From Owenia fusiformis (taxonomy: Eukaryota > Annelida > Polychaeta > Sabellida > Oweniidae), in assembly GCA_903813345.2 (NCBI GenBank), contig CAIIXF020000003.1, positions 17,622,931 through 17,686,930 of the forward strand: DNA of 64,000 bases, read 5' to 3'. Shown here piece after piece: positions 17,289-55,046 of the stretch. The position numbers and the translations under genes were made by a program. Each line of letters opens with the position of its first letter. Position 1 is the stretch's first letter. The notes beneath the pieces were generated by a model. The model saw only the letters and a list, made by a program, of their open reading frames with translations, had not been told where the DNA came from and searched no databases.

Positions 17289-18556
17289 ATGCAAGCAATG
17301 CTGTTAGATCTCTATGAAGTGCTGTGTTGTAGGGGTGTGCAACCAATGCAGTTAGATCTCTATGAAGTGCTATGTTGTATGGGTATGCAAGCAATGCAGT
17401 TCGATCTCTATGAGGTGCTATGTTGTAGGAGTATGCAAGCAATGCAGCTAGATCTCTATGGAGTGCTATGTTGTAGGGGTGTGCAAGCAATGCAGTTAGA
17501 TCTCTATGGAGTGCTATGTTGTAGGGGTATGCAAGCAATGCAGTTAGATCTCCATGGAGTGCTATGTTGTAGGGGTATGCAAACAATGCAGTTAGATCTC
17601 TATGGAGTGCTATGTTGTAGGGGTATGCAAGCAATGCAGTAAGATCTCTATGGAGTGCTATGTTGTAGGGGTATGCAAGCAATGCAGTTAGATCTCTATG
17701 GAGTGCTATGTTGTAGGGGTATGCAAACAATGCAGTTAGATCTCTATGAAGAGCACAGTTGTAGGGATATGCAAGCAATGCAGTTAGATCTCTATGGAGT
17801 GCAATGTTGTAGGGGTGTGCAAGCAATGCAGTTAGATCTCTATGGAGTGCTATGTTGTAGGGGTATGCAAGCAATGCAGCTAGATCTCTATGAAGTGCTC
17901 AGTTGTAGGGATATGCAAGCAATGCAGTTAGATCTCTATGGAGTGCTATGTTGTAGGGGTATGCAAGCAATGCAGTTAGATCTCTATGGAGTGCTATGTT
18001 GTAGGGGTATGCAAGCAATGCAGCTAGATCTCTATGAAGTGTTTTGTTGTAGGGGTATGCAAGCAATGCAGTTAGATTTCTGTGAAGTGCTCAGTTGTAG
18101 GGATATGCAAGCAATGCAGTTAGATCTCTATGGAGTGCTATCTTGTAGGGGTATGCAAGCAATGCAGCTAGATCTCTATGAAGTGTTTTGTTGTAGGGGT
18201 ATGCAAGCAATGCAGTTAGATTTCTGTGAAGTGCTCAGTTGTAGGGATATGCAAGCAATGCAGTTAGATCTCTATGGAGTGCTATGTTGTAGGGGTATGC
18301 AAGCAATGCAGTTAGATCTCTATGGAGTGCTATGTTGTAGGGGTATGCAAGCAATGCAGCTAGATCTCTATGAAGTGTTTTGTTGTAGGGGTATGCAAGC
18401 AATGCAGTTAGATCTCTATGAAGTGCTATGTTGTATGGGTATGCAAGCAATGCAGTTCAATCTCTATGGAGTGCTATGTTGTAGGGGTATGCAAGCAATG
18501 CAGCTAGATCTCTATGAAGTGCTCAATTGTAGGGCTATGCAAGCAATGCAGCTAGA
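17289..18556. repeat. Minisatellite, 48-bp unit, about 26 copies
   Basis: Highly regular 48-bp units contain GCAATGCAGTTAGATCTCTA and GTGCTATGTTGTAGGGGTAT. Because 48 is a multiple of three and the unit has no stop in some frames, long open frames arise on both strands: 16-residue repeats MQLDLYGVLCCRGMQA on plus and LLAYPYNIALHRDLTA on minus. Variant units (GAAGTGTTTTGTTG, GAAGTGCTCAGTTG) recur in the same order in the right half, so blocks of several units were duplicated. Most units keep AGATCT, a BglII site. I regard it as non-coding. Confidence 0.92.
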
Positions 18557-24275: not shown

Positions 24276-27200
24276 TTATTCAACATTTGGCATTCCACCA
24301 CCAGCTTCAGCCTGATGCTTAATGGTCTCTAATGTTTTATTGGAACTGTCAGCTGTTTCTACATCTGCCCCTGTGCTGGCATCTTCATTCGTAGGCTCCA
24401 TTTGCTTTGTGTTATCTTGGTCTTTTGTAATCTCATCCATAGGATTAAGCTTTTCTTGTTCCTTTGTAATATTGTCCTCTGAGGTTGTTTGTTCATCTGG
24501 TTTTGTGTCCTCATTTTGTTTTATTTCTTCTTCTGATCTTATGTCCTCATTTTGTTTTACTTCTTCATCTTTGTTTTGGTCTTCATCTGGTTTTGTGTCC
24601 TCATTCGGTTTTATTTCCTCATCTGATTTTATATCCTCATTTTGCTTTACTTCTTCATCTTGGATTGCGTCTCCATCTGCTTTTGTCTCTTCATTCGGTT
24701 GTGTCTCATCATCATCATTTTCTGTTTGAAGTGCATGTTCTACATCTGAATTGATCTTATCTTCCTCCATGGCAACTGCAGCATTTGAATCAATAGGTGT
24801 TGTCTCATTATCTTCTTTCTGTGTTTCCTCCCCAACTTCTGCAATATCATGAACATTGTCACCATCATCATCACTTTTTGCCTTGTCTCCATCAGCTTTT
24901 GTGGTTTCATCTACATCGTTCATGTCATCTCCAGTAGTTTGTGTGCTATTAATTGGAGTTTGGTTATCGTCAGCTTTTATGTTATTATCTTTAGCCTCTC
25001 CATGTTCTGTTTCATTCACTGTTGCAACAACAGGCTCATTAGCTTTATTAGGATCACCTGCAATGACGTTGACTACTATAGGGGTTGTTTGGTCAGGAGA
25101 CACATTTGTTCTTTTCTTCTTTCCACAACAACAACAGCACAAGATACATCCTATCACCCCAAAGAAGATTATAGATCCCACTACTATGACGCCTATAGCA
25201 ATCATGTCCACCAAGCCAAGACGGAGGATTGAACCTAGAAAATTGTCCCATCCTGGAAAACAAGATTGCAATGTTAATTTATAAAATAAATAATGATACC
25301 ATTTAGAAGGTTCAACAAGAAACTCAGGATTGAATGGATAAAGACATAAAATCAGCGGGAATGGATAAACTTATAAAATCGGATAGAATAGATGAAGCCA
25401 TATAATCAGAGACGCCAACCCAAAAAGGGAATTGTCGCCATCGTGCGAGAGAGAAACACACATTCGGTGAATATTCATAGATTTAACTGTGGGTCTTACC
25501 TGTACAGCCTAGCTCGTCCGTCCCATTAGAGCACTGAGGTGTACCATCACACTTCAACCCAGCGTTGATACAAACGGAATCTTGCTCACACTCAAACTCC
25601 GATGACTCACATGGTACTGCAAATAAAAGTTTTGTCAAGTGCTAATACGTATTTATACTGAGGAGGACTTATCCCGTGCCAGGACTATAGTCTATAGTCC
25701 TGGCACGGGACAAAGGAGGACCATTCTTGAAATGCATGATTTCCAAGGAATGAGAGCATACAACTAGTTTCTAAAATTTCATCCTTCGAACGCATGGACA
25801 TGAAGAATCCTGTGATAATGCCAACAAAATTTTAATTCATTTTCTATCAATCTGTATTTGGTACAATTTTATACACTTCATACATGCTTTTATGCATGGT
25901 CTTTATGATAAAAGGCTTTTCTTTATCAATTTCCAAGTCTTCTTTTTTGTCTAATTAACATAATCATAACACGACCATTGTGTCATATTTTTCATTGTGG
26001 GACATTACCTGGGGTGGTTCTTATTGCGATGAGCTTGAACCCAGAGAAAACTTGTGAACCATCCGTATGGAATTTGAACGAAACGGCCCGTCCAGTGGGG
26101 ATGCCCGTCAAGTTGGGACTAATGCCACAGTACCTTCCGACGAGGTGCTGAGCATTCTGAGTAGGGACGCTAGAGTTGTAGTACCAGTCGTAGATCTCTA
26201 AGTAATCGGACGAACAGTTAGTTGACGATTGTACAACCCACTTCTCCACCCTAAGCATGTACCTGGAATTATTTATATAATATATATTGTGCTTTTAAAT
26301 ATGTAAGTACAATTTTTTGAAGACAAGGCAAGATTACACAACAAACGAGTTCATATTATACAGTATTACATAGTAACTGACTGAAAGGTGCGTTGCAATA
26401 TTCGGTTAAAGAATATTCATATTTTGAACTCTATCAAAGTCACACTTATGTAGACTAGAAATGAAAATATTACTATATATTATCATAAAGAGCCAATTCA
26501 ACGCTTTAAGAAACCATAAGCTTACTCTTGAAAATGGATTCTCGCAATACTCTCCCATATGAATCCACTTGTTGAGAATGTCAACTTGAGTTCTTCTGAG
26601 ATAATGAGGATTTCAGCAAGGATGTATTGAATTAACATTGGCCGAGGGATAGGCTATGCACAATTGACTCAAAAACTATAAATGATGATGTCATCATGCA
26701 TCATCATGAAAAACCATGACATCTCATTTCTTCTCAGTAATGTTTCAGGTGAAACAGAAAGATGCTATGAGTATCAGAAGGTCATGCATGGGGATAAATA
26801 CAAAATCCTCATTTTCTCAGATTGAACTCAAGTTGATGAGTCTCAAGAAGTAGATCCATGTGGAAAAGTATTGCTAGAATCCATTTCAATAGTTAGAAAA
26901 GAAGTTCTTAAACAGGACATTTTCAGCTTAACTAAGGCCTTTTTGAAAATTTTGACTAGCTCTAATACCTGTTGCCAGCGTTGATACTTGCATCAAGGGT
27001 GATGATACAGTCGACGTTGTTACCATAGTTGGACAAGCCGAAGACGTTCAACCCCGACGTTATCCAAAGGCAATCATCCCTAATAGTCTCCCCGCAGTAG
27101 CCCCCAAATGTACGGCTAACACTCGCGTCCATGGCGTCTGCGAAGTGAAAATGTACGATAATATAGTGGCAACATTAGAAATGCATTTTTACATTTTTAC

Positions 27201-27862
27201 GTTTGTTGGTATGATTTTAAAAATCTAATTTCTTGTGTTAATTAAAGTGGCGGCAAATAATTGGGATTTGTTATGACCCGAAACATTCTGATACTCATCA
27301 CATTTTCCGATCCTAAACTCGTAGAGCTCGATAGAATTACGGTTGTAGTCTTACAATAGAGTTGTATTACTTTTTGTGAAATTGAAACAATTGAACAATT
27401 TGACTTTCAGTGACTCTCAGTATTCTTTGTGTATGATAAATACAGTAAGAAGGCAGACCACAGAAAAAGTTTATAAGGTAAATTGATCTTGATGACAATT
27501 ATAAATGTCGCCCTTTTTTAAAGTAAACAGTTCGACATCATAAATCCAAATCTTCAATTTCTAACATATTTGATAAGGAACCCCGTTTGTGATATGCAGT
27601 GAAAAAAATGAATTCGAATCTAGAACATTTTACACCATATCATTTAAACATGAGTATGATTTAGATTATGGAAATCATTTTTATATCTACTTTCTTTAAG
27701 GCACCAACTTGAATTGAAATGTTAAAACCATCACCCTAAACGGCTAAAACGACACCATCAGTACCAATACTTACAAGTTGATGTAAGATATACTCCTTCG
27801 CATAATGTCGGGCAATAAATGAAAAATATCCCGACGTGGAATAAAACTTGCCATCTCGCCAT
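24276..27862 (-). CDS. CUB-LDLa single-pass membrane protein with long acidic tail (gene A)
   Basis: Five exons: 27775-27862, 26969-27137, 26009-26262, 25500-25616 and 24276-25252 (534 aa). The ATG opens a signal peptide (MARWQVLFHVGIFFIYC, residues 1-23). Residues about 52-168 form a CUB domain with four cysteines and SSDYLEIYDW, GRYCG and VFSGFKLIAI. Residues 171-209 form an LDL-receptor class A domain (FECEQDSVC…CDGTPQCSNGTDE) in an exon of its own. The membrane helix is about 225-248, followed by CCCCC and KKKR, a likely palmitoylation and stop-transfer site. The tail of about 280 residues is rich in Glu, Asp, Lys, Asn and Thr, with an imperfect repeat around DEEVKQNEDIKSDEEIKPNE. By domain content it is a surface receptor or binding protein; the ligand is unknown. 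All junction phases agree (1-2-1-1). Stop at 24276-24278. Confidence 0.85.
25672..25710. repeat. Perfect 39-bp palindrome with 1-base centre
   Basis: The left arm TCCCGTGCCAGGACTATAG is followed by one T and then its exact complement. The arms are 19 bp. GGAGGAC occurs just left (25663-25669) and just right (25715-25721). It lies in the gene A intron between the LDLa and CUB exons. Such a structure can extrude as a cruciform; no function is implied. Confidence 0.9.
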
Positions 27863-28549
27863 CTTGCTTTACATAGAATTATCAAAGTATAATACTCAAG
27901 GTCAATTCGAATGTATGCTTTGGAGGCAACATCCCAAATGAAAGGGTTTCCAAGGGCTTTGAAATTATAATCCATCGCTTAAAAGACTTAATCTTTGTAC
28001 TATTGCAAAGAAGCGTGCCTCCCCCGGAAGAAGATTCAATATGATTTTGTGACAAATAACATAGATAAATAAAGACGATCAGTAATTTTAATTTTATTGA
28101 ATTGCAACCCATGATCGAGAAAAAGTGAAAATGGCAACTCTCGATGCACCAAAAGGGGTTTAAAACATTATGATATATATTTTACGCAATATGAAATGTT
28201 GACTAATTCTTACGAAACTTCAACATGGGAGTAATTCCGAAAGTAAATAAGAAAAACGATTTCGATAGTTCAATTGATTACAACAATGCGCTTTTAGTTG
28301 CCAAAATAGAAATCATGTAGAACCAATACAAGAAGCAAATCTCTCAGGAAAACACAATTCCAATCCAGGTATTGATCGTTGATATTTATCTTAGAGACTC
28401 GTGTTTTTCATTGAATAGGTATCATTTCCAAAAGTTGGTCATGATACTTTGCATACATTCTTCGATACTGGAACTGGTATAGAATTTAAAGTTTACGAGT
28501 TGGTTATAAGGATACATTTGAAAAAGTTTGCTTTAAACAGAGAGTTACT

Positions 28550-28622
28550 ATTTATTTATTTATTTATTTCACTCATTTATTTATTGATCATTTATTTATT
28601 TATTATTTTGTTTACCTTAAGC
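28550..28622. repeat. (TTTA)n microsatellite
   Basis: Imperfect runs of TTTA/ATTT interrupted by CACTC and GATC. Confidence 0.85.
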
Positions 28623-30943
28623 ATTGAAATAGTAGTACGCGCTTTTATTTCTAAGTATATGGACAAATTAAACTATCATTGCCCATATATGTGGGGACTT
28701 AATAAAACTCAGTAGGTTTTCTTAACTATAAGACTTACAATATGCTTCATTATTAGTTGTATGAAAGAATATTAAAAAAATATTGTTCTAAAATAAAACT
28801 GATTTTTTATAGACAATTTTATGAGTCTCGAGAGTATGCTCTTCCCGGATGCTCTTTTACCGAATATTCTTAATGTGAGATATTATGGGTAGTAAAGATG
28901 TTACGAAAATTATAGGTTCGTTTGGTTCATTTTTCCTGACGTGACTGTGAAAATTGAAAGGACAACCGCTCCGTCACCTTCTTAAAAATTAAATTCATAA
29001 TATATACTTTTCCATGGACCCCAAGCATTACTTTTGCCCACAACGTCTTCGCTGAGAGCACAGCCTGTCCAATCTATATATTATTTCGTTTGATTCTGTC
29101 TGTACGGTATAAAATACTTCCATTTTACATACATTTGTCCACCGGTGTAATAGGAGGTCCTATCAAATTATGGTCCTACTTTTGATTGATTTATATGGTG
29201 ACCTAATTACAGTTATTTTCCTTATTATCGTATCCACAATCAGGGCCAGTAAGGGCCTTTAAGAAAGGGGACCATAATCCCCAGGGGACCATAATTTTTT
29301 TCACACCGGTACTCAGATCTTTGGAGTATTTTGATGGGGCCGGGTACTCTTTGCGTTTAAACGAGGTTACGTAATTTCATCAAATTGAATGTATTATTCT
29401 TGAGTCACTGAAATTGTTTGAATCGGTGCAATACATAGGTCCGAAGCTTGATGAAGCAAGATGGTGCAATATTCAATGCAAGATATTCAACATATTTACG
29501 AGTAAGCACTGCATTTATGAATACAATTTTCCATGGTTTACTGCGATTGGGGAGCCATCTTTTACACAATTTTTGAAATAAATTTACCAATATAAAAAAT
29601 GAGAAAGCTTTTTTACAATGAATTAGTGCCAATATTTGAACAAATCGGTTAGGTCCAATAGTTACAATGCGCATGCGTTTTTTGTTGGCTTATTGTACAA
29701 ATACAAGGACCTGACACAACTATTAATATGTCACTTTTGTAATTTATTACTTCAAAAGTAAAGAATTCGTCAATAATGGAATTTTAGGACGTCTCCAAAT
29801 TTTAACTAGAGTTTTGGACAATCATGTATGTTCATCACTACTGGGTAAATGTTGTACTAGTATTGGCGACTCTAATAAAATCCAATGAAGCGATCAGTCT
29901 ATGTAAGTAAAAATCATTACTATCGAGGATTTTCAATATTTTGTTCTGCGATATGTATAAAAACAGCTTCAATTTGTGTATCAGCTTAGAATATGGCTGA
30001 TGGGGGGGGGGTCGAAACAGTTTATCTACTGCCAGAAAGTACTCTTAAAGTGGCAACAAAGGGATATAGAGTTTAATTTGTGGTTAGATGCATTTTTTGA
30101 ATTAATGAACATACCAATGTATATAACAATTTATATGAAATTTATATAAAAAATTGAGATAGCTGAATGCCTCTCGAAGAAGTCTTTCTTAATGAATTGC
30201 GCTCCCACCCATTTTCAACACGTGCATTATTTTGTTTCACATTTGATATGGATATATAGAAGATATGAAACAAAGGTATAACTTTCTATATGAAATAGAG
30301 ATAACCTTATGATTTACTCGGGTAGTAATCAAACCCCTTCATATGAACAGCTAGCTGAGTTATCATGGATTTTAAAATATGAGAGGACATTGCTATGGAA
30401 TAAACATGCCGTATCCTGAAGAAACATCGAATAAAACTATTGTATAATATAATGAATACGAATCATAAAGATAAACAATTGGAAAAAATCTCATCAGTTC
30501 GATCGAACAATAAAGCATCCATAAAACTAAGAATAACGCATATATGTGAATTATAATGATAGGAAATTGTAAAATCCCTCCTCCAGATCAAATTCGAATC
30601 CATAGTCATATATGCGATTTTTGGTGCACTCCGTCTTGTTTACCAATGTTTTTGAAGTTACATATTGAATGCATTTGACACCTTGGTAAACATATTCTGT
30701 TTTTGGCAACGCGTAAACTTTAACTCTGACTCAATATTTCAAAAGAATTCATTGAATGGATAATCTAAAAGAACACTAATATGAATCTTGAAAAGTGGTA
30801 CTTTTTTAAATGGATTTGTTTGCGTTGTATTTCTTTTTACTTTTCTATTGTGATGAGGATATCGAACCAAATCGATAATAGCACTGCGAATCATTGGAAA
30901 TGCATAGTATATTTAACAATAATATATTGCTGAGTAAATCCAA

Positions 30944-31070
30944 ATACTGTAAAAGCCCAAATCTTCGCTAAAATATTTCCCTAGTCAATCTGAAATGTTT
31001 CATGGGCATTAAACTCTTCAGCGAAAATGTAAAAATTAGGGTAGTTTGAAAATTTGGGCTTTTACAGTAT
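30944..31070. mobile_element. Short palindromic MITE
   Basis: It starts ATACTGTAAAAGCCCAAAT and ends with the complement (ATTTGGGCTTTTACAGTAT). Total 127 bp. The inner TTCGCTAAAATATTT is matched loosely by CAGCGAAAATGT. It lies about 180 bp upstream of the gene C start codon. Confidence 0.75.
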
Positions 31071-31248
31071 GGAGAAGAGCAAGAATGCCAACGATAAAGT
31101 ATTATTGAAGTTTTCCAAAACGTCATATTTTACAACCCCGAAGTAAAACCGTAGTATCCCGGACATTTAGTGCGATTCATAAATATCTATTTTTTCAAGC
31201 GTTAGATCAAAATATATTATCATCAATCTATATCATATAATAGCAGTT

Positions 31249-34200
31249 ATGTCTCCTCTACACAGACGGGGCATATTTATATTCCTTATCATTCTAAAAC
31301 ATAAAGGTTGGTTAGAGGAAAAAGTTTAAAGCTTTTATAGGCTTATAGCCAGATGCCATTCAATAATAAATATTCATGGTCGTATACAAGGTCACAAAGT
31401 CATAGCAAAAATTGTTGTCCATTGCTGCAAAATATAAACTCAATATATACTCAATATAAAATCACAATTACTATTGTTATTTTTTATTTCAGCAACTATG
31501 CACGGTTCGTGCGGATCCAGGCCGTTTGGACCTGCATCAGTGGGAACGGAATTTGTTGGTCCAACACACGGTCATGTAGTAACGTTCCATTCTGATCAAG
31601 GCGGATATGATTTTGTACCTGCGCATACAGGGATATATGACACCGACATTGATTGCTGGTTAATACTTAAAGGGCAACCCAATACTGCGGACCAGCCGGC
31701 GAAGAAAATATCATTATCGTGGAGGGGAAATTTCCACATGATTGGATATGGTGGTGATAACTATGTGGATACAGCATGTGATAGAGCCTTGGTTGAAGTG
31801 TATGATGCTGAGGATGATGGGATGACACTAACGAATAGACTTGCACATGGTTGTGGATCTACACCACCGGCAGTTTCTATCAGCAATGCTGAAACTTTTG
31901 TGGTGCATCTTTACGTTGCGGCTAAACCACCTGATATTAACTACACTGAGATCATCCCCTTTCCTCAAAATAATGCCACGTGTAATAACGCTACAGAAGT
32001 GTCGGTATGTGCTCTGAACGCCACATCTTGTGAGGTTGACTGTACCTGCCAATTCATCAACAACACACAGACAAATTTGAACATGACAACCCTTTCACCA
32101 AATGCGACAAATGCAAATACAACAAATACAACAGTTGCTACCACAACCGTTGCCGTAACAACTGCTGCCACAACTGTAGTTACCACAGCAAACATGACGT
32201 ACAATGCGACAACTATAGCAACGACTATGGCGTCAAATATAACCAACATGACAACGTTGGCACCTTGTGTGGAGCAATTAAACATCACTAATGTTACAGT
32301 GCTACAACCACGGATAAGATTCACTTTAGATTTTACATCTTATTTTGAAGGTACGTCAGGACCCCAAAAATTGTCCTACACTCCCTTCAAAAGGTTTGAC
32401 AACATGAAATGCTCTTTTGATCAACATATTGATTAAGACTCCATCGATCCCATCTTATTTATCAGTAATGACCAATCTGTTGTAATTGATGGGCATAGGT
32501 CTAATTTATCTTCAAACATAGACAGACTTTATGTCAAACACCAGGTCTGGTTGTCAAACTCGCGGTTGGGGGTTTAAGTATATGTCCTCTTGGGGGCCCA
32601 AAAAAAAATTGGGCCCAAAAAGATTTTTGAGCCAAACAAGGCCTTCAGGCCCCAAAAAGTGGGCATTGAAAATGTAAGGCCCATTTTTTAACCCAAAAAG
32701 GCCAAGTAATGCCCAAAGAGGCCCTCTCATTGAGGCTTTACAATTTTTTTGGCCCAAGAAAAAATTTCTGGGCCCACCTAAGGGGGTAGGACATACAAAA
32801 TCAAAACTGATAATAAATCTTAACATGCACCTTTATCAGTTATAACCTGAACAAAATATCAAACGCTGCATCTTTCAAGCGTATCATACATCATTATCAC
32901 CAACACTTGTTATTTCAGGTGATTGCTCTATTGATAATATCGACGATGGGCTTCAGATGCAATGTGACTCTGGACGTTGTATTGACGACACCTTAAGATG
33001 TGATGTTTACTATTCACCAAATTGTGGGACATCAGATAACAGTGACATCAGAGCGTCAGAACCAGGCAATTGTAGACGTGAGTATTTTGTTGAGGCATTC
33101 TCAACATTCAAAGAACGAAACAGTATAAAACATGGTACAAAGGACCAACAAAGGACAATTACAAGTATAATATGATTATAAAAACAAGACAATCCAATCA
33201 GTATCAGTGTTACTGAAATGTTCCATGGCTTTGTGATTTTCGATCGTCCTGTTGGCTATCACGCGGTGGGGGAAATTATATGAGACTGTTTGTTCGTGCG
33301 TTTGATTATTGGTTGGGATGTTTGGGTTTGATTCGCTATGATTGGGTGTCCTTTCTCGTATTTTCTTTTTATTACCTTGTTTTTTATTTTTTGTTCAATC
33401 ATTGTATTTTGAAAGACAATCAAAAAATCACTCCAAACAATAAATGACAACATAATATGCTTTACTATCTTTAGCCACACGACCGCCTGACTTATTCCCA
33501 TTGTACCTCGTACTTGGGTTGCTAGCCGCTCTAGCCATGTTGTACTGGTGTTGCTGGAGACCTGGCTATTGCCCATGGAGGCTTGCTCGATTACGCAACG
33601 TAAAATGCTGCAAGAGACCGTGTTGCCATCCGTGTCGTAACAGCCCAGCATGTCGCAAAACAGGTTGCTGTGGTAGTCCTGCAACTGGAGCATGCGCTGC
33701 ATGTTCTCCAACATGTTGCACTGGCGCCCCGGGACCTGGTGGAGGAGGGGGTTGTCTTGGCCCGTGTAGTAGGCTGCCATGTTGTTCTGGAGGCCCAGGG
33801 CCAGGAAGTGGAGGTCCAGGTAGCGGTCCTAAGAAAGGACCATGTGGTTGCTGTGTACCCCTCAATGGGAGTCTAGGTAAGCATCTGCTATAGTGATAAT
33901 TAAAAATATTTGGATGTTTTGAAAAAGAAAAACGTGATAAGTCAAGTTATCATTGACAATATTATTCCGAAGAGCGTGCACATTTTTCATGTAAAGGAGA
34001 CTCGAATGCTACTATTAAAAATATATCAGTGTAAACCAAGTTTGGATGAGAACAAAACTTTCAAAATATTTTGGACGATCCTTGTATTACTGATAATATG
34101 CATGAAATTAAAGCAATCAGATATGTTTCAAATGATAGCAAATTCAGATAACCCACGCTTCATTTATGACCTTAGATTTCCGATCTATTTGGCCCATGAG

Positions 34201-35032
34201 CATGTATATAAACGTGATGTTTTTTAATTCCGAAGGTATTGATGCGAATTCTATCCAAACAGGATGATTCCAATATTAAACAGGCAATGCGCCTATTTTT
34301 GAAGGAAAAAGGACAAAATATTGTTTGAGACATGTCACTCACACAGTCAATCAAATATGATAAAAACTTTAATTTGGGATAATACTGAAGTGAAAAAAAA
34401 ATTACTCGCATAGAAAACAGCATTTGAAGTTCAGAGATTGAAAAAAGTGAATTACCACTTTTCACAAATAGTGTATGTTTTAAATAACTCTTGGATTAAA
34501 AGATGGCGTATGCTTGAAAATCCTGTCAAAAATGAATTGATAATTAATGCAAACAACAATGCCATCTTTCTATGGCATTGCTAAAAACTTGACATATATA
34601 AATTGATAGATCAAAAATATTTTGTCATGATCTAGTGTCAACTCTGATGTGGTCTGTTTGAGCTTTTTTTGGTGTCAAATGAAAGATTGGGTACTTATTA
34701 ATCCATTGGAAATACTATTGAAGATCAAAAGTGAGACTTCATTTACGCACATTGTCCCTTTAAAGCGAATTAGAAGGCTACATTTTTGGGTCACCCTATT
34801 CATTATATAGTCTCTATCAACCAATACATATCATCCTTCTCGAAATACTATGTCACAAAACCTTTATATTTTAAGATTATTTTATAATAACTAATATGTT
34901 ATTACAGCAAGTGGTAATGGTGCAGGATGGGGTCCCAACAAAGCCAAAGCTGGTGGTAAAGGCGGACTAGGACCTAACGGTTGGACTAACTTTAGTAATG
35001 ATGATGGAGCTCATGTTAGAGAAACACGATAA
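31249..35032 (+). CDS. CUB-LDLa single-pass membrane protein with mucin-like insert and Cys/Gly/Pro-rich tail (gene C)
   Basis: Exons: 31249-31306 (tentative), 31493-32350, 32919-33077, 33475-33876 and 34908-35032 (533 aa). The proposed first exon gives MSPLHRRGIFIFLIIL, a short signal peptide; its GTTGGT donor is weak but the phase fits genes A and B. Exon 2 is CUB-like (TDIDCWLILKG, CDRALVEVYDAEDD, LAHGCG). A stretch of about 100 residues rich in Thr, Asn and Ala with many Asn-X-Thr sites (TTNTTVATTTVAVTTAATT) follows, then a last strand RIRFTLDFTSYFEG. Exon 3 is an LDLa-like module (QMQCDSGRCIDDTLRC…NSD). Exon 4 begins with the membrane helix (LYLVLGLLAALAMLYW) and then a tail packed with CC pairs, Gly and Pro. 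Exon 5 ends VRETR, stop TAA. All phases close. AATAAA at 35757-35762 fits the 3' end. Confidence 0.82.
32560..32795 (+). repeat. GGGCCC-rich dispersed repeat copy in gene C intron
   Basis: Dense GGCCC/GGGCC phrases such as AATTGGGCCCAAAAAG and CAAGGCCTTCAGGCCCC match 37195-37462 and 60985-61322 in the same orientation on the plus strand. It lies in the intron between the CUB and LDLa exons. Confidence 0.75.
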
Positions 35033-35089
35033 GCGTTGTACCACATGTATCAAAGTATTGCTTCTGGGACAGAACTACATGCCATGGAT

Positions 35090-35275
35090 ATCAGGCCCGT
35101 TGCCCAAAAATTTCCAAGGGGGTTCACATTTGACAATTTTGGCCCAAATATGGCTAAAATCACTTGAAATATGCTTAAAATGGTGAAAAACTGCATGATT
35201 TTGAAAGAATTTTTGGTTCGCAGGGTTCGGGCCCCGGGGTTCGGGCGACCCCCTTGCTACGGGCCTGGATATGGA
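35090..35275 (+). repeat. Dispersed repeat fragment in gene C 3' region
   Basis: TATCAGGCCCGTTGCCCAAA, GGTGAAAAACTGCATGATTT and CTACGGGCCTGGATATGG match 14560-14760. It starts some 60 bp after the gene C stop codon, so it is probably part of the 3' UTR. Confidence 0.6.
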
Positions 35276-35756
35276 TCCATATATTCAATGCTGTAGAAAT
35301 TACAATTAATGTGATTGATCGCACATTCGAGGACTTAGTTATGATCTGTGATATCTGATTTTGGAAAGCCTAATCTAACTCCAATGACATTATTAATGTC
35401 AACGCCTGATAGTGATATGTGATACGTGACTGTGATTATGGTAGTTTGATGTTAAATTTTGATCTGTGATATCTGCTTTTTGGTAGGCCTAATTTAACTT
35501 CAAGTCAACGCCTGTTCTATATGATACTTGATTGTGGGAAATGAGAAATCATGGCCGTCTATATACAGATATATCAGAATTACAGTGATGTGGTTTAGTG
35601 ACAGTGTCTTGTCTTGCTCGAATGTAATTTTTATGCCAGGTTTAATTTCGTGAAACACAGGAAATCGCAAAAGTTGTAAATATTGTACAATAGCAATTCA
35701 TATTTTGTAGTACTTGAAATATATTTGGAGCGGTCTCTTTATTATTTGTCACTTTT

Positions 35757-35762
35757 AATAAA
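35757..35762 (+). terminator. Polyadenylation signal AATAAA for gene C
   Basis: AATAAA about 725 bp after the gene C stop. On the opposite strand, AATAAA hexamers for gene B begin about 27 bases to the right (TTTATT near 35789), so the two genes end tail to tail with nearly overlapping 3' ends. Confidence 0.5.
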
Positions 35763-36163
35763 TTCAAATATCAGTGATTGTAAAACGTTTTATTGTACCA
35801 TATTTTATTTACATTTATTTATAATTTAATAAATAAACAAACAATTAAAAATGTCTTCAAATCAATCATTATGTCGTAAAGCAGACCAGCTGCCTTACTT
35901 TCTGACTTCTCAACCATTTGGCAAATTCTATTACACCAAGGGAAGGGTTGTATGCATTTTGATGATGGGCTGATGATATTTGTACATTCATTTTTCCCGT
36001 GTAATTTTTTCTCATGTTTTTTCATTAACTTTTCGTTTTTTCCCGTTGCTGCAGAGACATATAAACGTAAAATATTCCTTCTGGGCTCTCGTGGCTTTGG
36101 AGTCACGATAGAAGTGGGTGATAATACTGTTGATGCAAAACTTTATATTTTTAAAATGTTTGT

Positions 36164-39100
36164 TCAAGTTGATGCTACTACATTGGCTTTGGTAAGTCTA
36201 GGCTGTCTATTTGTACCATCCGTTGGACTACCATTTATACCATAATCTGTCATACCATGACTCAATGCACTTAATGGTCTCTCTTGCGCATGCTCAGTAG
36301 TGGTCTCTGTAACAGTCGTCACCTCTTGCTCTGTTGATACAGTTTCAATCTTAGATTTTTTCACACGTGTGTGATATTTTGAATATTTAACAGTAATTGG
36401 ATATATCCAATCAAAGTGGCCTCTACGGAGTGACTTTGGTTGGGATCTGAGAAGTTTCTGAAGTGCATAGTATTGGTAAAGCCTGTAGGCCACATAGATG
36501 AGGATAAGGATGAGGAGTAGGACTGCTATGATAACGCCGACCATGATGCCATAGTCTATTATTCTATTTTCCTTCTCGATAATATCCTCCTCTGGAATCA
36601 TAGTTAAACTTAGTTTTAGTCATGCATCAAATCTCGAGACTTCCCCCTATAAACCACCACATTGTGGATATGAAGAGTTTGGGGGAGGAGGAGTCACACA
36701 AGCTTGATGGAAGATTGAACTCTAATATAAGTATCATGGCACGTGGCCTCAAGGCTTATGCAATATAAAATCTACTTATTCCCATTGTACTTCATCCAGA
36801 CAATGCGTTTTAAAGAGTGTAGAAACAGAACAAGAGATACCTTTGCCGTTATATCTAAGACATTGCAATGAAAAACATTTAGAAAAACTAACAGATTGAT
36901 TAACCAATTGATAGATTGTCGAAAATGATTTCTCTGTTCAAAAATATTCTCAAATTGAAACGATCGTGCAAAATAGTTATTTGATACAAGGTCCGTACCT
37001 GTACAGAGGGCCTCGTCTGAGCCATCACCACATTGGTCATAATCATCACACTCTAGATCGGCAGGTACACAGAACTCACCATGCCCACAGGCAAAGTAAT
37101 CGGCTCCACAAGGGGCTGAAATGTATGCAATATAATGTAAATTGTCTCATTTTTGATAGCGGTTTGAACCGTTGTGGTAGGCCACACTGGCGGATCTGGG
37201 GGGGGGGGGCTGGGGGCCAAGAGAAATAATTGGTCCCAAAATTTGGGCAAAAAAGGCTTTAAGGCCCCCCAAAATGGGCCTTTTTGGTCATTAATGGGCC
37301 TTGTAAAGCCTTATTTTTTAATTTCAGGCCAAGTTTTAAAGAAAATGGGCTTCAAAATTTCAAAATTTGGGCCCACTTTTTGGTTTTAGGGGCCCAAGAT
37401 TTTTTCTCTGACCTGAAAATTTGGCCCCCCCCCTTGTTGGTTCCCAGATCCGCTCCTGGGCCATGTCACTTTTCTATTCCCTCTCTTTATTAATTAAGCA
37501 TACATAATTGAATAAATGATAATCTAAATAATCAATATAGTTTTATATCTAAAATTATCTTAATTTCAGTCCACTAATTTTAAACTACTTGTGCGGGCTA
37601 CTATCGCGTTACGTATTTTATGAAATAAAAAAATATGGATACATCCTTGTGCGCAAGGGGTATCTCTAAATAATTGAAACTTACGGTTTGAAAAGGCTAT
37701 ATAGACTATTTCAAATCCTTTGAAAACTGCGTTAGAATCGGAGAAAAACTTTATCGTTGCATTGGGTCCTGATGTGGTGAAATTAAATGGTTCTTTCACG
37801 GTGTCACATAAGGTCTCAGGGGTGAGTCTGTTGGCGGGAGATAGAGGACCGTCATACACATCTAAGCCATCAACACATTTGCCCAATAGTTTCTCCTCCA
37901 GTTCAAACCTGATAAGACAGCACAAAGGGAAACATTGCAAAACATTACATCTAGTTTTGCATCGAATCTCTGGACCTCCAAACCCCTAGTCTCCCCCTAA
38001 AGTCTCTGCCTCCTCTCAATTTAGGTCACCTCTGACGTGTGGACTGTGGAGATAAGGTTTGGACTAGGGTGACGAAAAGGGGTTGGCATTGTCCCCGGAT
38101 TGTCAAAGGGGCTTGAAGCAAGACTATTCGTTTTTATCATTATTATCATAATCTTATTTCAAATGTTGTTGATTACAATTGTTGCATAATATGCATATGT
38201 GAGGATCTATAAAATTGGAATGTATATTGCCCTTTCGTGTTGCATTTGGCACTTGAGAATATAAATGAAGCATAACTGGATGATGTAATGGCTGGTCAAG
38301 AAAAATATGATGATTGATCTCTCAATGTACCTTTTAAACTGCAGATACATTTTTGTTGTGGCTGCTATGTTTATTCTAGTGGCGCAGTCCATCTCGTTGT
38401 CATAGGTGATTGAGGTGCTCGTCTCTAGGCGACCGCTGTTGATTCCACCTATCGCCGAGTTGCAGACTAGAGTCATGTAATCTAAAAATATACATCAAAA
38501 ATACACTATAATACTTCTCTTCTACCAAATTAGCTTAAATCAGGAAGATAGACCCACTAAATAAAACATATGATATGATTAAAATATGAGGGAGGGTTGC
38601 GATTTTACATTTTTCAAATGTTGCCCTTTTTGCTTCTTCTTTGTGAAGATCCATCAAAATGCCGGGCTACTACTCAGTATTGCAAAACAATTTAGTTTCT
38701 ACATCGTGACCTCTGTTGAAAAAGAAGCGTCGATGGTGTCCATTTTTCAAATGCTACCCTTTCTGCGTTTTCATAGACCGGGCTACTAAACTCAATACAA
38801 GGCATAACATGACAAAATGTCACCACCTAGTTGCTCACAATATCATTAGTTCAAACTTATAGTCAGTAACTCTGTAGATAATTTTGAAAAATGGTCAATT
38901 TGAAACAAGCTTTTTGACCCTGAGAAGGTCATTGAAGGTGAAATCTCAAATCTTTGTCAAGTTATTGAAAGTTGTAAGAAATTGTTACAGACGCCGATCG
39001 CCAACCGCCATCCGTAGTCACAAAAATGGAGACCATAACAATATGTCACTACTTTTTGATGGTGACATAATAATGCTAAAAACTGTTCACACGTAGAGCG

Positions 39101-40462
39101 GGTTCTGCTGATAGTGACCTCTATTTAAGTCCAAACAGACGTGTCGATCATAATAAAACAGAACTTGAAAAAATAGTCTGGGGAACATTGATCAAATAAA
39201 ATCAGGACATAAAGAATATTGGTTTAGTTTTTGAAAAGTCCGATTGATTCAAAACAATTTATGGCTAATGTTTACAAGTTGATGACGTTGGAGTATTGAG
39301 TTTCGTATTTCCTTTTAATTCGATAAGTTGGTTTAAGTTAAGAACAAACATGGTTGTTACAACACTTCTATGATTCCAAACATTTTGTAAATAAAGATGT
39401 GAATTCTTCAATGAGTTTAAGCTTTGTACTATTGTGAAGCTGATTTCTTTCACTGGTTTATAAATATCGTTCCATTTGAAAGCTGTGATCGACTTTCTTC
39501 TATCAAGAACACGTTGTTCTGATAAAAAGGCATTTTAGTCGCATATTGTATTGTAATGACACCTTTTGGCCAAGTTACCTTTGCATACATATTCTTCGAA
39601 CACATCTAGGGTGAAGAATTATCACGGGCTTTCTGCTCTTGAAAACCCATGGAATTATGAACTAATTTTCAATAAATTTATTACCACTTTATTACCATAT
39701 TCACCCCAAAATAATTCAACTTATGCATCTAGATATTCTTTCTTGAATATCTTGTAATGTAGGGCATGTATACCGATGCGGAGAGCGATCCATCAACATT
39801 CTTTCAATTCTTCTGTACTCAATTCAATTAACTGCATGTTTATGATACAGTAACATCCAATGTTGTTATGTTGCCATAGATACCGTGCTATTCAATTACT
39901 GAGCGTTAATGTGAGAGAATGAAATTACATCGTTTTCAGCACTTATACCTTCAGTTCTCGTCACCAACTAGGTTAAAACTCGAACACCGTTTTGATGTAT
40001 TATCTTCATCTTAATGATACGCCCTATGTAGACATATCAATTGAAACAGAGACGTATAAAACATATGTCTCTGCTTGAAATTACTTGTGAGTGATATCAT
40101 ACCATAAGTTGATAAAGATTGAGAATAGACTATTTTTAAAAATATTAAAGATAACACATTTTGTATATATATTTAGATAGTACAAAAGAAATCGGCATGA
40201 CAATTACAACCTAAACAACAAGCATTAACCAGTATTTAAGAATTCATTTAGCCCCTTTTGGAGACACATACATTTACTAGTAGTAGATTTGACCCAATGG
40301 AGCTTCAGTGACATGAGCTTATAATAAATAAATAAACAAATAAACAAACAACAGACAAAACGTACCTGTGTGTAAGTCCTCGCAGCATATCTCCCGAATG
40401 AGACGAAGGAGAACGTAAACGTATATTATAAGACATTGCTGAACTGTCTCCCTTTTAGCCAT
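36164..40462 (-). CDS. CUB-LDLa single-pass membrane protein with short tail (gene B)
   Basis: Five exons: 40366-40462, 38331-38481, 37685-37908, 36999-37115 and 36164-36591 (338 aa). The start gives MAKRETVQQCLIIYVYVLL, a signal peptide with a charged start. Residues about 37-157 form a CUB domain (NEMDCATRINI, GKCVDGLDVYDG, ETLCD, AVFKGFEIVYIAF). Residues 158-196 are an LDLa domain (FACGHGEFC…ECDDYDQCGDGSDE) in a 117-bp exon, the same size and phase as in gene A. The membrane helix is about 209-232 (IMVGVIIAVLLLILILIYVA). The tail of about 105 residues has a Tyr/Arg/Lys-rich start and a Thr/Glu-rich end (EQEVTTVTETTTEHAQ), unlike A or C. Junction phases agree with gene A throughout, and every splice site is GT-AG. 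Probably a surface receptor or co-receptor; the ligand is unknown. Confidence 0.88.
37190..37462 (+). repeat. GGGCCC-rich dispersed repeat copy in gene B intron
   Basis: It starts CACTGGCGGATCTGGGGG and ends CCCAGATCCGCTCCTGGG, a short inverted terminal repeat. The interior (AAATGGGCCTTTTTGGTCAT, AATTTGGGCCCACTTTTTGG) matches 60985-61322 closely. It is antisense to gene B, in the CUB-LDLa intron. Confidence 0.8.
38798..39070 (-). mobile_element. Copy of the ATGTCACCACC-family element in gene B intron 1
   Basis: In reverse orientation: CAAGGCATAACATGACAAAA, TGTCACCACCTAGTTGCTCA at the left; ACAGACGCCGATCGCCAACC and GGAGACCATAACAATATGTC near the right. It is a short version of 10728-12334 with only one diverged tandem unit. 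Confidence 0.75.
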
Positions 40463-46300: not shown

Positions 46301-49300
46301 ATTATTTTGAATTTAAAGAGTCTAGATGTAGCAATTTCTTTTAAAAGTGAAATCAAATTATTGAAAAGCACATTTTGATAACTGGGTAGGACTTAGGACT
46401 ATAATATAAGCCAAAGTGGATTAAACTTCATATGGGGCCTTTAAAGAAGTGAGATAAAATTATTGAAAAGGGTACCTCAAATGGAACCTTAGAGGCTAGC
46501 AGTAAAACTTCTTACAAAGGGTAACTATCAATAAATCATGTTACCAAATTATCAATCAGTTTTTCAATTTGAATTGGTGTATTCATTATCATGTTTTGTC
46601 TTAGAGTATGTCAAAGGTCATAACTTATCAAATGCCTCTATTGTTGTATTATTTACAAGTGCATTGGGACTTATTAGATCCTTTACAATGTTAAACAATA
46701 TCAACAAAGGAGCATCAAGTAGTTTTTAGCCAATTTTTAGAATTTTTGCCCAGGGGGGGTTGCTCGAACTCCTCGAACCCCCCTGGATATGGGTCAGGTT
46801 CTCTTCCTGAGATAGAAGAGGCATTGCAACTCTCAATGTTAATCTAATCATGCGAGATTTATTGATTGCTCTTCAGGCTTAATTGGGAGTGACGGGGGGG
46901 GGGGGGGGGGGGGAGGGGAACGGGGGAATTATGGGTAATCAAGATTTTCATGGCAGACCAGGAACTTAATATATCAATATTTCTAAACTCTATGTTGATA
47001 GTGCAAGTGACAGGTCATATTTAAGTTAAACTTTTACTGGATGTAAATCCAAATTCTGTTGAGCTGCTTGTTGATTTTTCTGTTTTCATTTGTAATTTAG
47101 AGGCCATTAACAATTGTATTGATGTAGTCAATGTCAAGCTTTATGAGCCTCATTGGAAAAACTGAACTGAATCAGTTCAATTCAGGCTGCATTCATTTTG
47201 CCAGTCACAACCTCATGAAACATGATTTCTCTATTGTTTTTTACCCAATGTTACATAATCTTCAGTGTCCAACTTGGTAACTTACCTTGCTCATCTCATT
47301 TTGGAATTCCCCAAAAAGTATATACCATGTTTCATGTTTTTCACATAGAGTGGATGATAGAAGACTGGTCCAGTATTTAGGATTGAAAATGATTTGAACT
47401 GATACGAAACATTCTAAGTTATACTGACATGTAAAATAACATGATAATTGAGTGACTGAGATAACTGAGTAGCACTCTGAATCTAGCTAAAAACTAACTA
47501 CTCTAGACTTGGTGTAGACGAAGCTGCTTCGAGAACTGAAATCTAAAAAATGTGAAGGGTGATTGAGTAGCGTCTTAATGAGAATTAAGTACTATTATAC
47601 ACAACTATTTTTTAGAAGTACTTTTACCTTATGAAACACTTCACTTATTCCTGCGCCATCCTTCATTTAAAGTGCCTGGCGTCTTTCAAGTCAGAACAAA
47701 GTGGAGTATGCTTGAATAAGACATGCTCTAGAATTGAAATTAGGAAAAAACATCTATAAAGCTGTTTCTACAGATGGACTGCATGCATTAAGGATAGATT
47801 ATTCTACAAAATAAAAATACCAGTATTTAGTTATTTGGATATGTGAAACACTCACTGTAATTTTAAAATGATTAATATGAAATATGTGAAGCATTATCTG
47901 ACATTTGATAAGGATTAATTTGAAAAATGTGAAACACTGGGTTCTGTTAATATTATGGGACTATCCAGAATGCTGTGCAAGGGTTTAAAATGGAGTATAA
48001 GAACATCTACCTGTAGTCATTCAACAAAAGATTATGACAAAGGTATGGAGGTACAAATTAATTACTCAGATGCGAGTAGGTAGTTACCAGTTTCGCCACC
48101 AGGTGGCTGATTCGGGGGAAATAACATGGCAGGGTATTACAAAATTCCCTTGAACTTGAATATTCATCAGTTTTAGTGGTTCATTTTTCATATTACCCTT
48201 TTGTATCTGATGGTTATACAAATTAAAATATGTCCAGTAAAAGAATCAAGAAAAGATATTTCACTTTTTGGGATTTTACAACATGGGCTCTATGGGGAAT
48301 CTCCCCGACCTAGAAGTCACATTTTCAAAGAAAATTAAATTTTCAAAGTTGATAAACTCTTTTCAAAACCACATTTCTAGATGTAATTCTACATGTAGAT
48401 TCCAAATATGACATCAGTTTGACTGAATTTTAAATCAAGATTATATCTACTCGCATCTAGTCTATTGAATAAACCCCTTCTTGAGAATTATCCTTAGTTA
48501 TGACTCTCTTGGACAGCAATTTGAGAGCAAAGCGAGAACAGCGTGTGGTGCAACAAGATGGTGGTGGCACCTTTACCCAGCACCTCATTTTCCACTGGTT
48601 AGCCACTCTCATAGGCTTTCCCAGTATCATATTCATAAGTCAACTCTTTCCAATCTATATTTAGCACTCATTCATTCACTTGTTCACTCATGCTGATATC
48701 AATATCAACTATTTGACAGTGGCTTCGATAGGATCAATAATTTTGTGAGGCAAATGTAAATAGGTGAGGCAAATTTAGGCTAAAGGAGGTACAGTATATT
48801 GTCACCTTTGGACTATATTTCTTTGAATTTGCCTCATATGCCTTGCAACATTCATACATTATTCACACACTTACATTTGATTTAATTTGATATTTTCAGT
48901 TGGTACAAGCTGGTATGCTTCAGTGTTTATAGTGGTGAATGCAGCCTTAGGAGCTGGTCTACTCAACTTCCCCAAGGCTTATAATGACGCAGGAGGAGTC
49001 CTTATTGCCATTATAGTGCAAATTGTAAGTTTCATTATTGCCATCATAGTGCAGATTGTAAGTTTCATTATTGCCATTACAGTGCAGATTGTTAAGATTC
49101 ATTATTGCCATCATATAGTGCAAATTGTTAGTTTCCTTATTGGCATCATAGTGCGAGTTTCCACCATAGTGCATATTGTATGTCCCTTTATTTCCATCAT
49201 AGTGCAGATTGTATGTTCAGTGTAGATTAAAAGTTTCATTTTTGCTAATATTTCCCATCTTCTTTTGTGCAGTAAAAGGTGGCCACCCTGGGGTTGATTA

Positions 49301-52300
49301 GAAACATCCACTGTGTCAAATTTGACACCTTAATAGCCCGACATATCTGGCAACTTTATTCATTCCACCCTTGCAATTTTAAACATGGCCACCATGAAAT
49401 TATCATGTAACTTTCTTTTTTCACACTTTGCAGGTCTTAATGGTGTTCATCATCGGTGCACTGATAATCCTTGCTTATTGTTCCGATTCAAACCAGAGCG
49501 CCACCTATCAAGATGTCATCTACTCGATGTGTGGAAGACAAGCCCAAATATGCTGCTCATTAGCCATCCTGATATACTGCTTTGGGACGTGTATTACATT
49601 TTTTATCATCATAGGTGACCAATGGGATCGCTGTGAGTATTCACTTCTATTTTATTCAAAGGGTTCCTTAATGATGATTTATATATATATGTAGCTGTGA
49701 ACTTAGTACTTTTAAAATAATAGTCTTTGTTTAGTACTATTCTTGCATTGCATAATTAAATACAATAAATAGAGAAATTGATTTGTATGATTTTAACATT
49801 TGCCTATGGCTGAGATTAGGCTGCTGCATGATTTGAACAATTTTCTACTTTTGTTTTCAGTCTTGACATTTGCCTTTTGGCCAGATAACTGCATGATTTG
49901 AACAATTTTTCATTTTTTCTTTTCAGTCTTGACATTTGCCTATGGGGCAGATTACTGCCATTACTGGTACATGTCTCGTACTTTTACAATGATAGTCTCA
50001 TCAGTTATACTCATACTCCCTCTATGTTTTCCAAAGAGAATAGATTTCCTCAAATATGCAAGGTAAATATGTTAAAAAATATTGAAATCTTAATTAATCA
50101 AATCTGCCATGTTACATGTGTTAAAATATGATTGCTTTGAGTATGGCTTCACAGTTTCAAAGGTTCTTAAGAAATGGTAGTACAACAAAATGTGGCTCTA
50201 TTAATACATAACAATATGTAAGGACTCTAACTGCATGACACATGTACATTATTCAAGTATGTACCTATTTCATAATCTTTCAAACTTTATGAAAAAAGAT
50301 ACATTGATCACACATAAATGAAACTATTTGTTTGTTCTAAGCATTTTACCTTGTTTTATATTTCAGTATAGCAGGTGTCTTTGCTGTTGTCTATGTAGTC
50401 ATATTAATCACAGTTAAATATTTTGTGGGAGAAAATCATCCAGGACCAATCGCAAGCGAGTAAGTCTAATTTATTAATATAGGTTCTACACTTATGTAGG
50501 TAGTAGTGATCTCCCCAGCATAAAAGCAAGTGGGCCCTGCACCAACTTGATATTTAAATAATAGACTTTAACCCAACCGAGAATCAATTTGCACCCACTT
50601 GAAAATGAGAAAAATCACGTAAAATATGCATATTTTGACCTCATTTGGTCTGAATTGTGAATGTAAGAATTTTGCACCCACTTGAAAAATATCCTGGAGA
50701 GAATACTGGGTAGTGAATATAACGTATATATGGAGCCCATGGAATCACCCACTCAGCCATCTTTTCATTTACTATTTTAGCTAATTAGCTAAAAATGACA
50801 GGAATGATACCTTATTGATACAATAATAGAAATATAAATGTGTGATGTGTTAATAGTATATATGAATAATTATGAAGGATATAGGACTGGGGACCAAGTT
50901 GTGTCTTTGATGCAACATATTTGAAGTGTGTCTCCAACACAATCTTGTCACTTTTACCAAATTATGATCCCATCCCACTTATCTTAACAATACTTCTTAA
51001 TTAAGTATTAATTAAGACATTGTTGGATTTGCAAACCCCTCATTGATAATTCTTCTCAATTTCAGACCAAAACATTGGACCAGTGTATTCCTAGTGGTTC
51101 CAGTTATATGCTTCGGATACCAGGTGAGACAAAATAAATGAGCCAGGACACAGGAGGGGTCTTTTCACAGATTTTTTCAATATTTTGATTTTTGTCTATC
51201 TTAAAAAGTACAAAGAGACCTTTCAAATGAGCCATGGCTTGTGTCTTAACAATTTTTCCTTAATCTTGGGCACTTTTTTGGCTCTGTAGCACAATTTTGA
51301 TTTTTGTGATAAGACCGGTTTTCCTATGGCCAGGCTCAAATATTATCTATTCAAAAATATTCAATAACTGTGTTTTTCAATACTACATTCAATAGTGGGA
51401 AATCTGATTGCACCCAGTTAAAACACAGTAAGTTGTATCAAGTCCTTTTTGATCCTTAATATGGTTCTTTGGGCGTCACTGGTAGAATAATGTTCCAAGT
51501 GGGAGGACCCCCCAAAAACCATAGAGGACCAAAAAGGAAAAAGTTTCCTGTGAGTTAAAATGATTTTGACCAAAAACAGCCATAATACATGGATTTATCA
51601 CCATCTGAAATAAGGAGCTCATGCAGTATAAGTGCAGTGTTATTCTGAAGCTTACTCCTGCCTTCTATAGCCATTGAAATAGATTAAAATGTACATGATT
51701 TTATCGCTCATGAATAGTCAATCGTGGCTTGAAAGTTGTCACACTTAGAAAAATGGATTGCTTCAGTGAATGTGTTATTTTATTGCTTTGTAACCATGGT
51801 GACAGATGCTCCCTTTAGAGTGTTAAATTACTCCACTGTAAAGTTATACAATTTTGATTTTCCTGATTTGATTTTTTCTTCCAGTGCCATGTCAGTGTAG
51901 TCCCAATATATTCATGCCTGAAACATCGAAGCGTCGGAGAATTCTTAAAAACAGTCATAGTTGCTATGGGGATATGTTTTGCAACATACACAGGGTCAGC
52001 CGTATTTGGATATTGGACATTTGGCTCGTATGTGAATGCTGATATTTTAGTTTCGTATAAGCCGACGCCTGATGTTTTAGTGGGTATAATATTGATAGCT
52101 GGGAAGATCTACACGACCTATCCCATATTACTGTTCTGCGAAAGGTAAAGTATGCTCACATACCACATTTTCGTAACCTTAAAATTATCAACCTGCTGAA
52201 TGATCATGCATTTATATAATAGACATGCTACCAAAGGTTGTTAATGTAAAATTCTTACACATATCCAACTACATGTATCTCTTAGAGTGGATGAACCTTT

Positions 52301-54191: not shown

Positions 54192-55046
54192 TTAATCTTT
54201 ACACAAGAGTAATTGTCTATGCCTGTGCAACTCGTACACGTGCATCGCTATAAGTAGCAAGGTCTCCTTATCCTCATTGTATACAATTCCTAAAATCACT
54301 TTAAGAGTAAAATCATCGTTCATTACATTTAGATTTCCCCTTGCTATATTGAGTAAGGGTTTTCTGACATTCGTAAAAGCTGGGCAGGTAATCAGGAAAT
54401 GCTTAACACTATCTCTTTCGTTGTCACAAAAATTACAAATTTCTGATATAGGTGTGTCACCCTCACGGCGTCTACTATTTACATCGTATGTCGATGTAAA
54501 CAGCTTAACCATCATTTTACAGAGGTACATGAGATTGGGGTTTTCTTTAGCAATCACCCACCATACATTGGGTTTTAAAGTGGACAGCGATCCTGTCACC
54601 ACATTTAGATTTTTATACATTGAAGACGATAATACAGTACAAAAATTGTGAAATCTCTTGACACGTCCGTACACTACAATTTTAAATTCTCGTTTGGATG
54701 AAATTTGAGCATTAAAAATCATGTCCTTAACATAGTCTGTGAGATTATAAAACAGAACCGTATCCCACATTTGAGCTAATGGAGACTTCCTACCCTGATA
54801 TGTTGATTTTAAATACATCATTCGTATAAGCCTTTCTAAACAAATAACCTTATATATACAACTTACAGGCAACCTTAACAACATATACAGAAACATTAAT
54901 CTATCACAGTCAATTTTTGCTCTAACAGAGATATAAAATTTAGCGATGAAAAAATCAGAACTGATTGAAGAATAGAAATGGATGGATGTAACATAAGACA
55001 ATCGACTTAATAGAAAATACCTCAACATACATGTACGGTATCTCAT
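54192..55046 (-). pseudogene. LINE reverse-transcriptase C-terminal region, fragment
   Basis: An open frame of 284 aa with the end typical of Jockey/CR1/I-type LINE proteins: a basic, Leu-rich part (LYMLLRLPVSCIYKVICLERL, cut short here) and a C-terminal zinc-knuckle-like motif CNFCDNERDSVKHFLITCPAF. It lacks the catalytic FADD region, which should lie at higher coordinates. It is therefore 5'-truncated, as usual for LINEs. The frame is open over this length, so the insertion is younger than the relic at 1-900. Confidence 0.75.

Follow-up and report, generated by a model that had tools for sequence, protein, structure and literature searches.

What kind of proteins do three neighbouring genes encode when they seem to combine one extracellular plan with three wholly different tails, and how did this arrangement come about? 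The question is raised by a stretch of 64,000 nucleotides of Owenia fusiformis DNA, hereafter the window (C3:17622931-17686930 of the 498-megabase (Mb) assembly), in which an earlier note had described genes A, B and C as a tandem cluster of CUB-LDLa membrane proteins that had exchanged their tails. Based on domain, profile and genome searches and on pairwise comparisons, we propose a different account. It is probable that the locus encodes three separate type I single-pass proteins of a known CUB/LDLa class, that C is a strongly diverged member and that the tails became unlike by divergence. The genes follow each other in the order A (reverse strand, 24276-27862), C (forward strand, 29824-35032) and B (reverse strand, 36164-40462), with C inverted between the other two. 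Provided that the candidate first exon of C holds, A and C are oriented head to head with 1961 base pairs (bp) between them; C and B lie tail to tail, their coding ends separated by 1131 bp. From the sequence, all introns of the three models are GT-AG and the reading frames are continuous and closed. Five exons with phases 1-2-1-1 make up A as well as B, whose products have 534 and 338 amino acids, respectively; that of C has 540, candidate signal exon included. The signal peptides and membrane helices of all three were judged by eye from the translations.

A and B read as clear members of the class of CUB/LDLa single-pass membrane proteins. The Pfam CUB model matches A with 34.7 bits (E 2.4e-8) and B with 37.1 bits (E 4.3e-9) at a cut-off of 21.4, and an LDLa module follows in both, with 33.6 bits (E 4.4e-8) in A and 35.2 bits (E 1.4e-8) in B at a cut-off of 24.1. 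The helix comes after LDLa in the last exon of either gene. Among solved structures the best relative of both proteins is NETO2, which matches A at 2e-15 over CUB2 and LDLa and B at 1.5e-15 over CUB2 and LDLa, reaching into the helix. Pfam detects a single CUB stretch in each, so that neither has the two CUBs of NETO proper. The CUB and LDLa that had been read from the letters of A and B are borne out in this way by the domain searches, the exons are GT-AG, signal and helix are recognized by eye, and the 117-bp LDLa exon is present in both models. The common phase pattern is likewise there; the CUB is interrupted by a phase-2 intron in either gene, at positions that differ by 7 codons.

Is such a protein new? 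The CUB-LDLa-helix order of A and B is that of NETO1/NETO2 (Drosophila Neto, C. elegans SOL-2). NETO has two CUBs, as the title of a cited paper states, while A, B and D, a further gene introduced below, have one each, and both CUB stretches of NETO2 can be aligned here. Other known proteins have one CUB, one LDLa or LDL repeat and one helix. C. elegans MIG-13 is presented (PMC5560785) as crossing the membrane once and as having a single CUB and a single LDL-receptor repeat, and mouse Lrp12 is said there to rescue the mig-13 mutant in part. Drosophila CULD (CG17352) and Loaf (CG6024) likewise have one CUB, one LDLa and one helix; Loaf is found on vesicles inside the cell, and trafficking may be under its control (PMC8205486). 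Its cytoplasmic antigen spans amino acids 292-378, and the tail of A is far longer than this. These descriptions, together with that of NETO, imply that a CUB-plus-LDLa architecture is not new, and the statement that no named family exists fails at the level of architecture for MIG-13, CULD and Loaf. Among the papers that searches on CUB with LDLa or on MIG-13 brought up, we recognized none that describes A, B or C, no search having been aimed at the set of tails.

How closely are A and B related to each other? Their Smith-Waterman (SW) score of 143 (z 19) is reached by 0/300 shuffles and is about equal to that of A with NETO2 (SW 147, z 23). The score of B with gene D is SW 177 (z 26). D (L001, reverse strand, about C3:12.973-12.978 Mb) lies on the same chromosome at a distance of 4.7 Mb and consists of a signal, CUB, LDLa, a helix and a tail with NPAY; its CUB (32.8 bits) and LDLa pass the Pfam cut-offs. 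The recurrence of the plan in D supports our assignment of the genes to the class. In its intron positions D departs from A and B, the end of its CUB and the LDLa lying in one exon (exon ends by eye), and it has in common with B a YMxxxC right after the first phase-1 intron. In searches of the genome the best non-self match of A is a B exon (1e-5) and that of B is D (1.2e-8, 42%). When D was the query, a search in which only the best candidates were scored, its best non-self matches were LDLa repeats elsewhere and B was unlisted at E<=0.1, which leaves the B-D link one-way in the genome searches. With A, B and C as queries no full-length close paralogue and no further copy beside them was found. 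Eight other loci (L003-L010), viewed as open frames, contain no clear copy of the A/B plan: L003 combines a CUB with several LDLa modules and a helix and is LRP-like by eye, and L004-L010 have LDLa with or without other parts. Scores and genome searches together indicate that A and B are related, though not demonstrably each other's closest kin.

Two features that look like signs of close kinship carry less weight than they seem to. We rejected the equal length of the LDLa exon as such a sign, as 117 bp is ordinary in this genome, being the commonest length estimated (4/20). These lengths are rough, the script having sought phase-1 exon ends only; 28 loci were scanned, 26 of them gave 34 modules, and 14 of the 34 remained without an estimate. 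The common phase pattern is weakened both by the 7-codon offset and by the frequency of the CUB intron position: 45 of the 150 CUB matches listed for the genome begin at profile positions 36-40, near the intron of A, and 2/150 at positions 42-48. When the phase-2 introns are mapped on NETO2, that of A falls 7 residues before that of B at three gap penalties; the A-B alignment gives the same offset at two of three penalties, the third leaving the position uncovered.

Gene C is a probable but not certain diverged member of the class. Its CUB piece alone finds nothing in Pfam at E<=0.1 and nothing useful in NCBIfam, and its LDLa piece alone reaches E 0.073 with 13.7 bits, below the cut-off of 24.1. 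A CUB profile made from 11 stretches (A, B, D, two further loci, two of NETO2 and four of cubilin) nevertheless assigns it 14.0 bits, the best shuffles giving 7.5 (1000 plain) and 5.0 (1000 Cys-preserving); 1352 of the 2001 sequences in this test were scored and the remainder taken as lower. On an LDLa profile built from 14 modules C obtains 15.2 bits, equalled by 0/1000 plain and 1/1000 Cys-preserving shuffles. Four of its cysteines align with cysteines of A, B and D. Pairwise, with the insert removed, C resembles D (z 6.7, 0/300 shuffles) and NETO2 (z 5.0, 0/300 shuffles; CUB end and LDLa only), and its scores with A and B are weak, equalled by 19/300 and 23/300 shuffles. The CUB profile match extends to residue 139 of the piece that was scored, right before the insert, and the segment after the insert, RIRFTLDFTSYFE, resembles by eye the last CUB strand. 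The LDLa-like module has six cysteines and no SDE motif. Going by these likenesses, C probably forms a CUB and an LDLa fold. A fold model of the whole of exon 2 from MHG onward was useless, with a predicted local distance difference test score (pLDDT) of 36.5.

The plan that the earlier note had ascribed to C holds in part: the CUB likeness goes beyond shuffles and the LDLa-like module has its six cysteines, but the Pfam cut-offs are not reached and the signal exon is a candidate. A hydrophobic stretch before MHG was rejected as the signal, as it is a translated acceptor tract. A strict scan for a signal exon found none, and a relaxed scan gave three candidates, of which 29824-29902, third by a simple score, was picked by eye; in a control stretch of equal length two weaker candidates passed. 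The insert that had been called mucin-like is present, but its 114 residues, with 13 N-glycosylation sequons, 31 Thr and only 6 Pro, make it Thr/Asn-rich and not a classical mucin.

What, then, do the tails tell us? They are wholly different, as had been noticed, and the counts confirm it. The tail of A, which begins after a run of cysteines, has 283 amino acids with 84 Asp or Glu and no Phe, Trp or Tyr; that of B has 107, including 8 Tyr, with one YxxPhi-type motif (YYAL); that of C has 150, with 22 Cys, 34 Gly and 19 Pro. A common plan with unrelated tails is clear for A and B and probable for C. Searched alone in the genome, the tails of A and C returned only themselves at E<=0.01, and the tail of B, searched within a longer query at E<=1, had no other genomic match in the tail alone, a miss of this kind being no proof of absence. 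The tail of A contains a repeat with a 90-bp unit in 2.3 copies (87% match), itself composed of 18-bp units, and growth in place explains part of its length without any exchange. The complement of this repetitive tail (window 24316-24729, forward strand) is open for 137 amino acids, which is probably an effect of the repeat and not a sign of a gene. Elsewhere, L002 (G000:C3:26500500-26504000) and L010 (C3:26126500-26130500) have open frames in which a helix is followed by CCCC or CCC, so that juxtamembrane cysteine runs are not peculiar to A; in L002 the run is CCCC and no LDLa was seen in the stretch fetched. Ordinary divergence, which is the simpler account, seems to explain the differences between the tails better than an exchange would: the tails are probably disordered, fast-diverging sequence.

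A number of observations weigh against the assignment of the three genes to this class, and most of them concern C. Pfam returns nothing at E<=1 for the whole C protein, its alignment to A, B and D by hhalign is weak (11% for the CUB, 50% for the LDLa), and a shorter fold model has a pLDDT of 65, a middling value. A Foldseek search with that model retrieved beta-rich structures of a generic kind; no match reached E<=0.001, and the best 50 of 1023 include no CUB. Moreover, LRP2 and LDLR outscore NETO2 among solved structures when D is compared, the expression of A, B and C is presumed, and the functions of known class members are quite varied, a role for these genes being read by analogy. Might C then be unrelated to CUB-LDLa proteins, a glycosylated surface protein with a cysteine pattern due to chance? 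The Pfam, hhalign and Foldseek results would agree with this, as would a sequence search of solved structures, whose single match (E 0.28) was irrelevant, and a search of the genome, where no relative appears at E below 0.6. We consider it unlikely, given that none of 2000 shuffles reaches the CUB score of C and one of 2000 its LDLa score, that four of its cysteines have aligned counterparts in A, B and D, and that CUB-like part, LDLa-like part and helix follow each other in the order typical of the class. At the other extreme, C might be a new kind of CUB-LDLa receptor, with an N-glycan-rich spacer of 114 residues before the last CUB strand, a degenerate LDLa without the calcium motif and a Cys/Gly/Pro-rich tail suited to heavy palmitoylation; it would share a head-to-head promoter of about 2 kilobases with A, and A, C and B would form one co-regulated set with partner-specific tails. 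This composite proposal strikes us as quite improbable.

For the origin of the locus the earlier note had proposed tandem duplication followed by an exchange of tails, on the pattern of receptor families under diversifying pressure; immune receptors would be a parallel. The common plan, phase pattern and LDLa exon length of A and B speak for such a history, as does the fact that helix and tail occupy a phase-1 exon of their own in these two genes, so that exons could have been exchanged. The order of the genes, C lying inverted between its neighbours, is at odds with simple copying in tandem. Further points against the proposal are the 7 codons between the CUB intron of A and that of B, the greater nearness of B to D than to A and the about equal nearness of A to NETO2 and B. 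The similarity of C to A and B is weak, 117 bp is an ordinary length for an LDLa exon, the genome searches reveal neither a donor of the tails nor a further copy beside the three genes, and the tail of A bears internal repeats. Both parts of the proposal are left unsupported, and we give very little credence to the cluster with exchanged tails. An old local duplication is another matter: A, B and perhaps C may stem from one CUB-LDLa gene, inversion, movement of introns and divergence of the tails beyond recognition having followed. A and B are related beyond any of the shuffles and are neighbours, a B exon is the best non-self genomic match of A, and D is on the same chromosome; conversely, the A-B score is no better than that of A with NETO2, and the CUB introns are offset. 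We regard this history as plausible without preferring it. It concerns origin only and is compatible with three single-pass proteins of a known class whose tails have diverged.

What would such proteins do? By analogy with the known systems, A, B and C are most likely trafficking or auxiliary receptors whose ectodomain would bind a partner membrane protein or a ligand. The ectodomain, in which CUB and LDLa are akin to the CUB2-LDLa part of NETO, would bind a membrane receptor, a secreted ligand or a channel. Where at the surface this partner resides, and for how long, would be governed by the helix and tail. S-palmitoylation is probable for the cysteine clusters next to the membrane in A and C, and the YYAL of B could serve as a sorting signal. 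At least part of the tail of A arose through tandem repetition of a 6-codon unit. In fly and worm, membrane proteins with a single CUB and a single LDLa have roles in the trafficking of receptors, the targeting of axons and the migration of neurons. Additional clear members from another invertebrate, with tails that differ, can help to separate conservation of the ectodomain from the role of the tail, and C could test how far a CUB diverges while still folding. The genes are ordinary but were correctly spotted; their architecture is known, and C is the only unusual part and worth a second look.

Table. Coding parts of genes A, C and B and features within them (window positions)
Feature	Position	Strand	Content
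A exon 1	27775..27862	-	start codon and signal peptide (MARWQVLFHVGIFFIYCPTLCEG...; by eye), phase 1 end, splice GT
A exon 2	26969..27137	-	CUB, first part; phase 2 end near the CUB intron position frequent in the same genome
A exon 3	26009..26262	-	remainder of CUB
A exon 4	25500..25616	-	LDLa, 117 bp, phase 1-1
A exon 5	24276..25252	-	helix, CCCCC, 283-amino-acid acidic tail, stop
A tail tandem repeat	24492..24700	-	90-bp unit x 2.3, composed of 18-bp (6-codon) units
C candidate signal exon	29824..29902	+	MYVHHYWVNVVLVLATLIKSNEAIS, phase 1; candidate only
C exon 2	31493..32350	+	diverged CUB uninterrupted by introns, then the sequon-rich insert and a segment that is probably the last CUB strand
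C insert, residues 171-284	31924..32265	+	114 residues with 13 sequons; CUB profile match stops just upstream
C exon 3	32919..33077	+	degenerate LDLa-like, six Cys, no SDE motif
C exon 4	33475..33876	+	helix and Cys/Gly/Pro-rich tail
C exon 5	34908..35032	+	tail end and stop
B exon 1	40366..40462	-	start codon and signal peptide (by eye), phase 1
B exon 2	38331..38481	-	CUB, first part; phase-2 intron 7 codons after that of A
B exon 3	37685..37908	-	remainder of CUB
B exon 4	36999..37115	-	LDLa, 117 bp, phase 1-1
B exon 5	36164..36591	-	helix, 107-amino-acid tail with one YxxPhi-type motif (YYAL), stop

Other elements occupy the remainder of the window. A 48-bp tandem array at 17289-18556 (26 copies, 91% match) is probably a satellite and not a gene; its period is a multiple of three, which accounts for long open frames on both strands (315 amino acids forward, 233 reverse). 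Mariner-type transposase frames lie at 5144-6394 on the forward strand, the first of them matching HTH_48 (1.4e-8) and Transposase_1 (2.3e-7), the second (6011-6394) recognized by eye only. Exons of an amino acid transporter extend over 48881-53113 on the forward strand, where the joined first two open stretches match Aa_trans at 1.6e-15 and the later exons were identified by eye only. On the reverse strand, 4066-4296 matches the first exon of a cytochrome P450 (1.2e-6), and a frame of 290 amino acids at 54192-55064, with a weak reverse-transcriptase zinc-binding match below the cut-off (9.4e-4), is probably the remnant of a retroelement.

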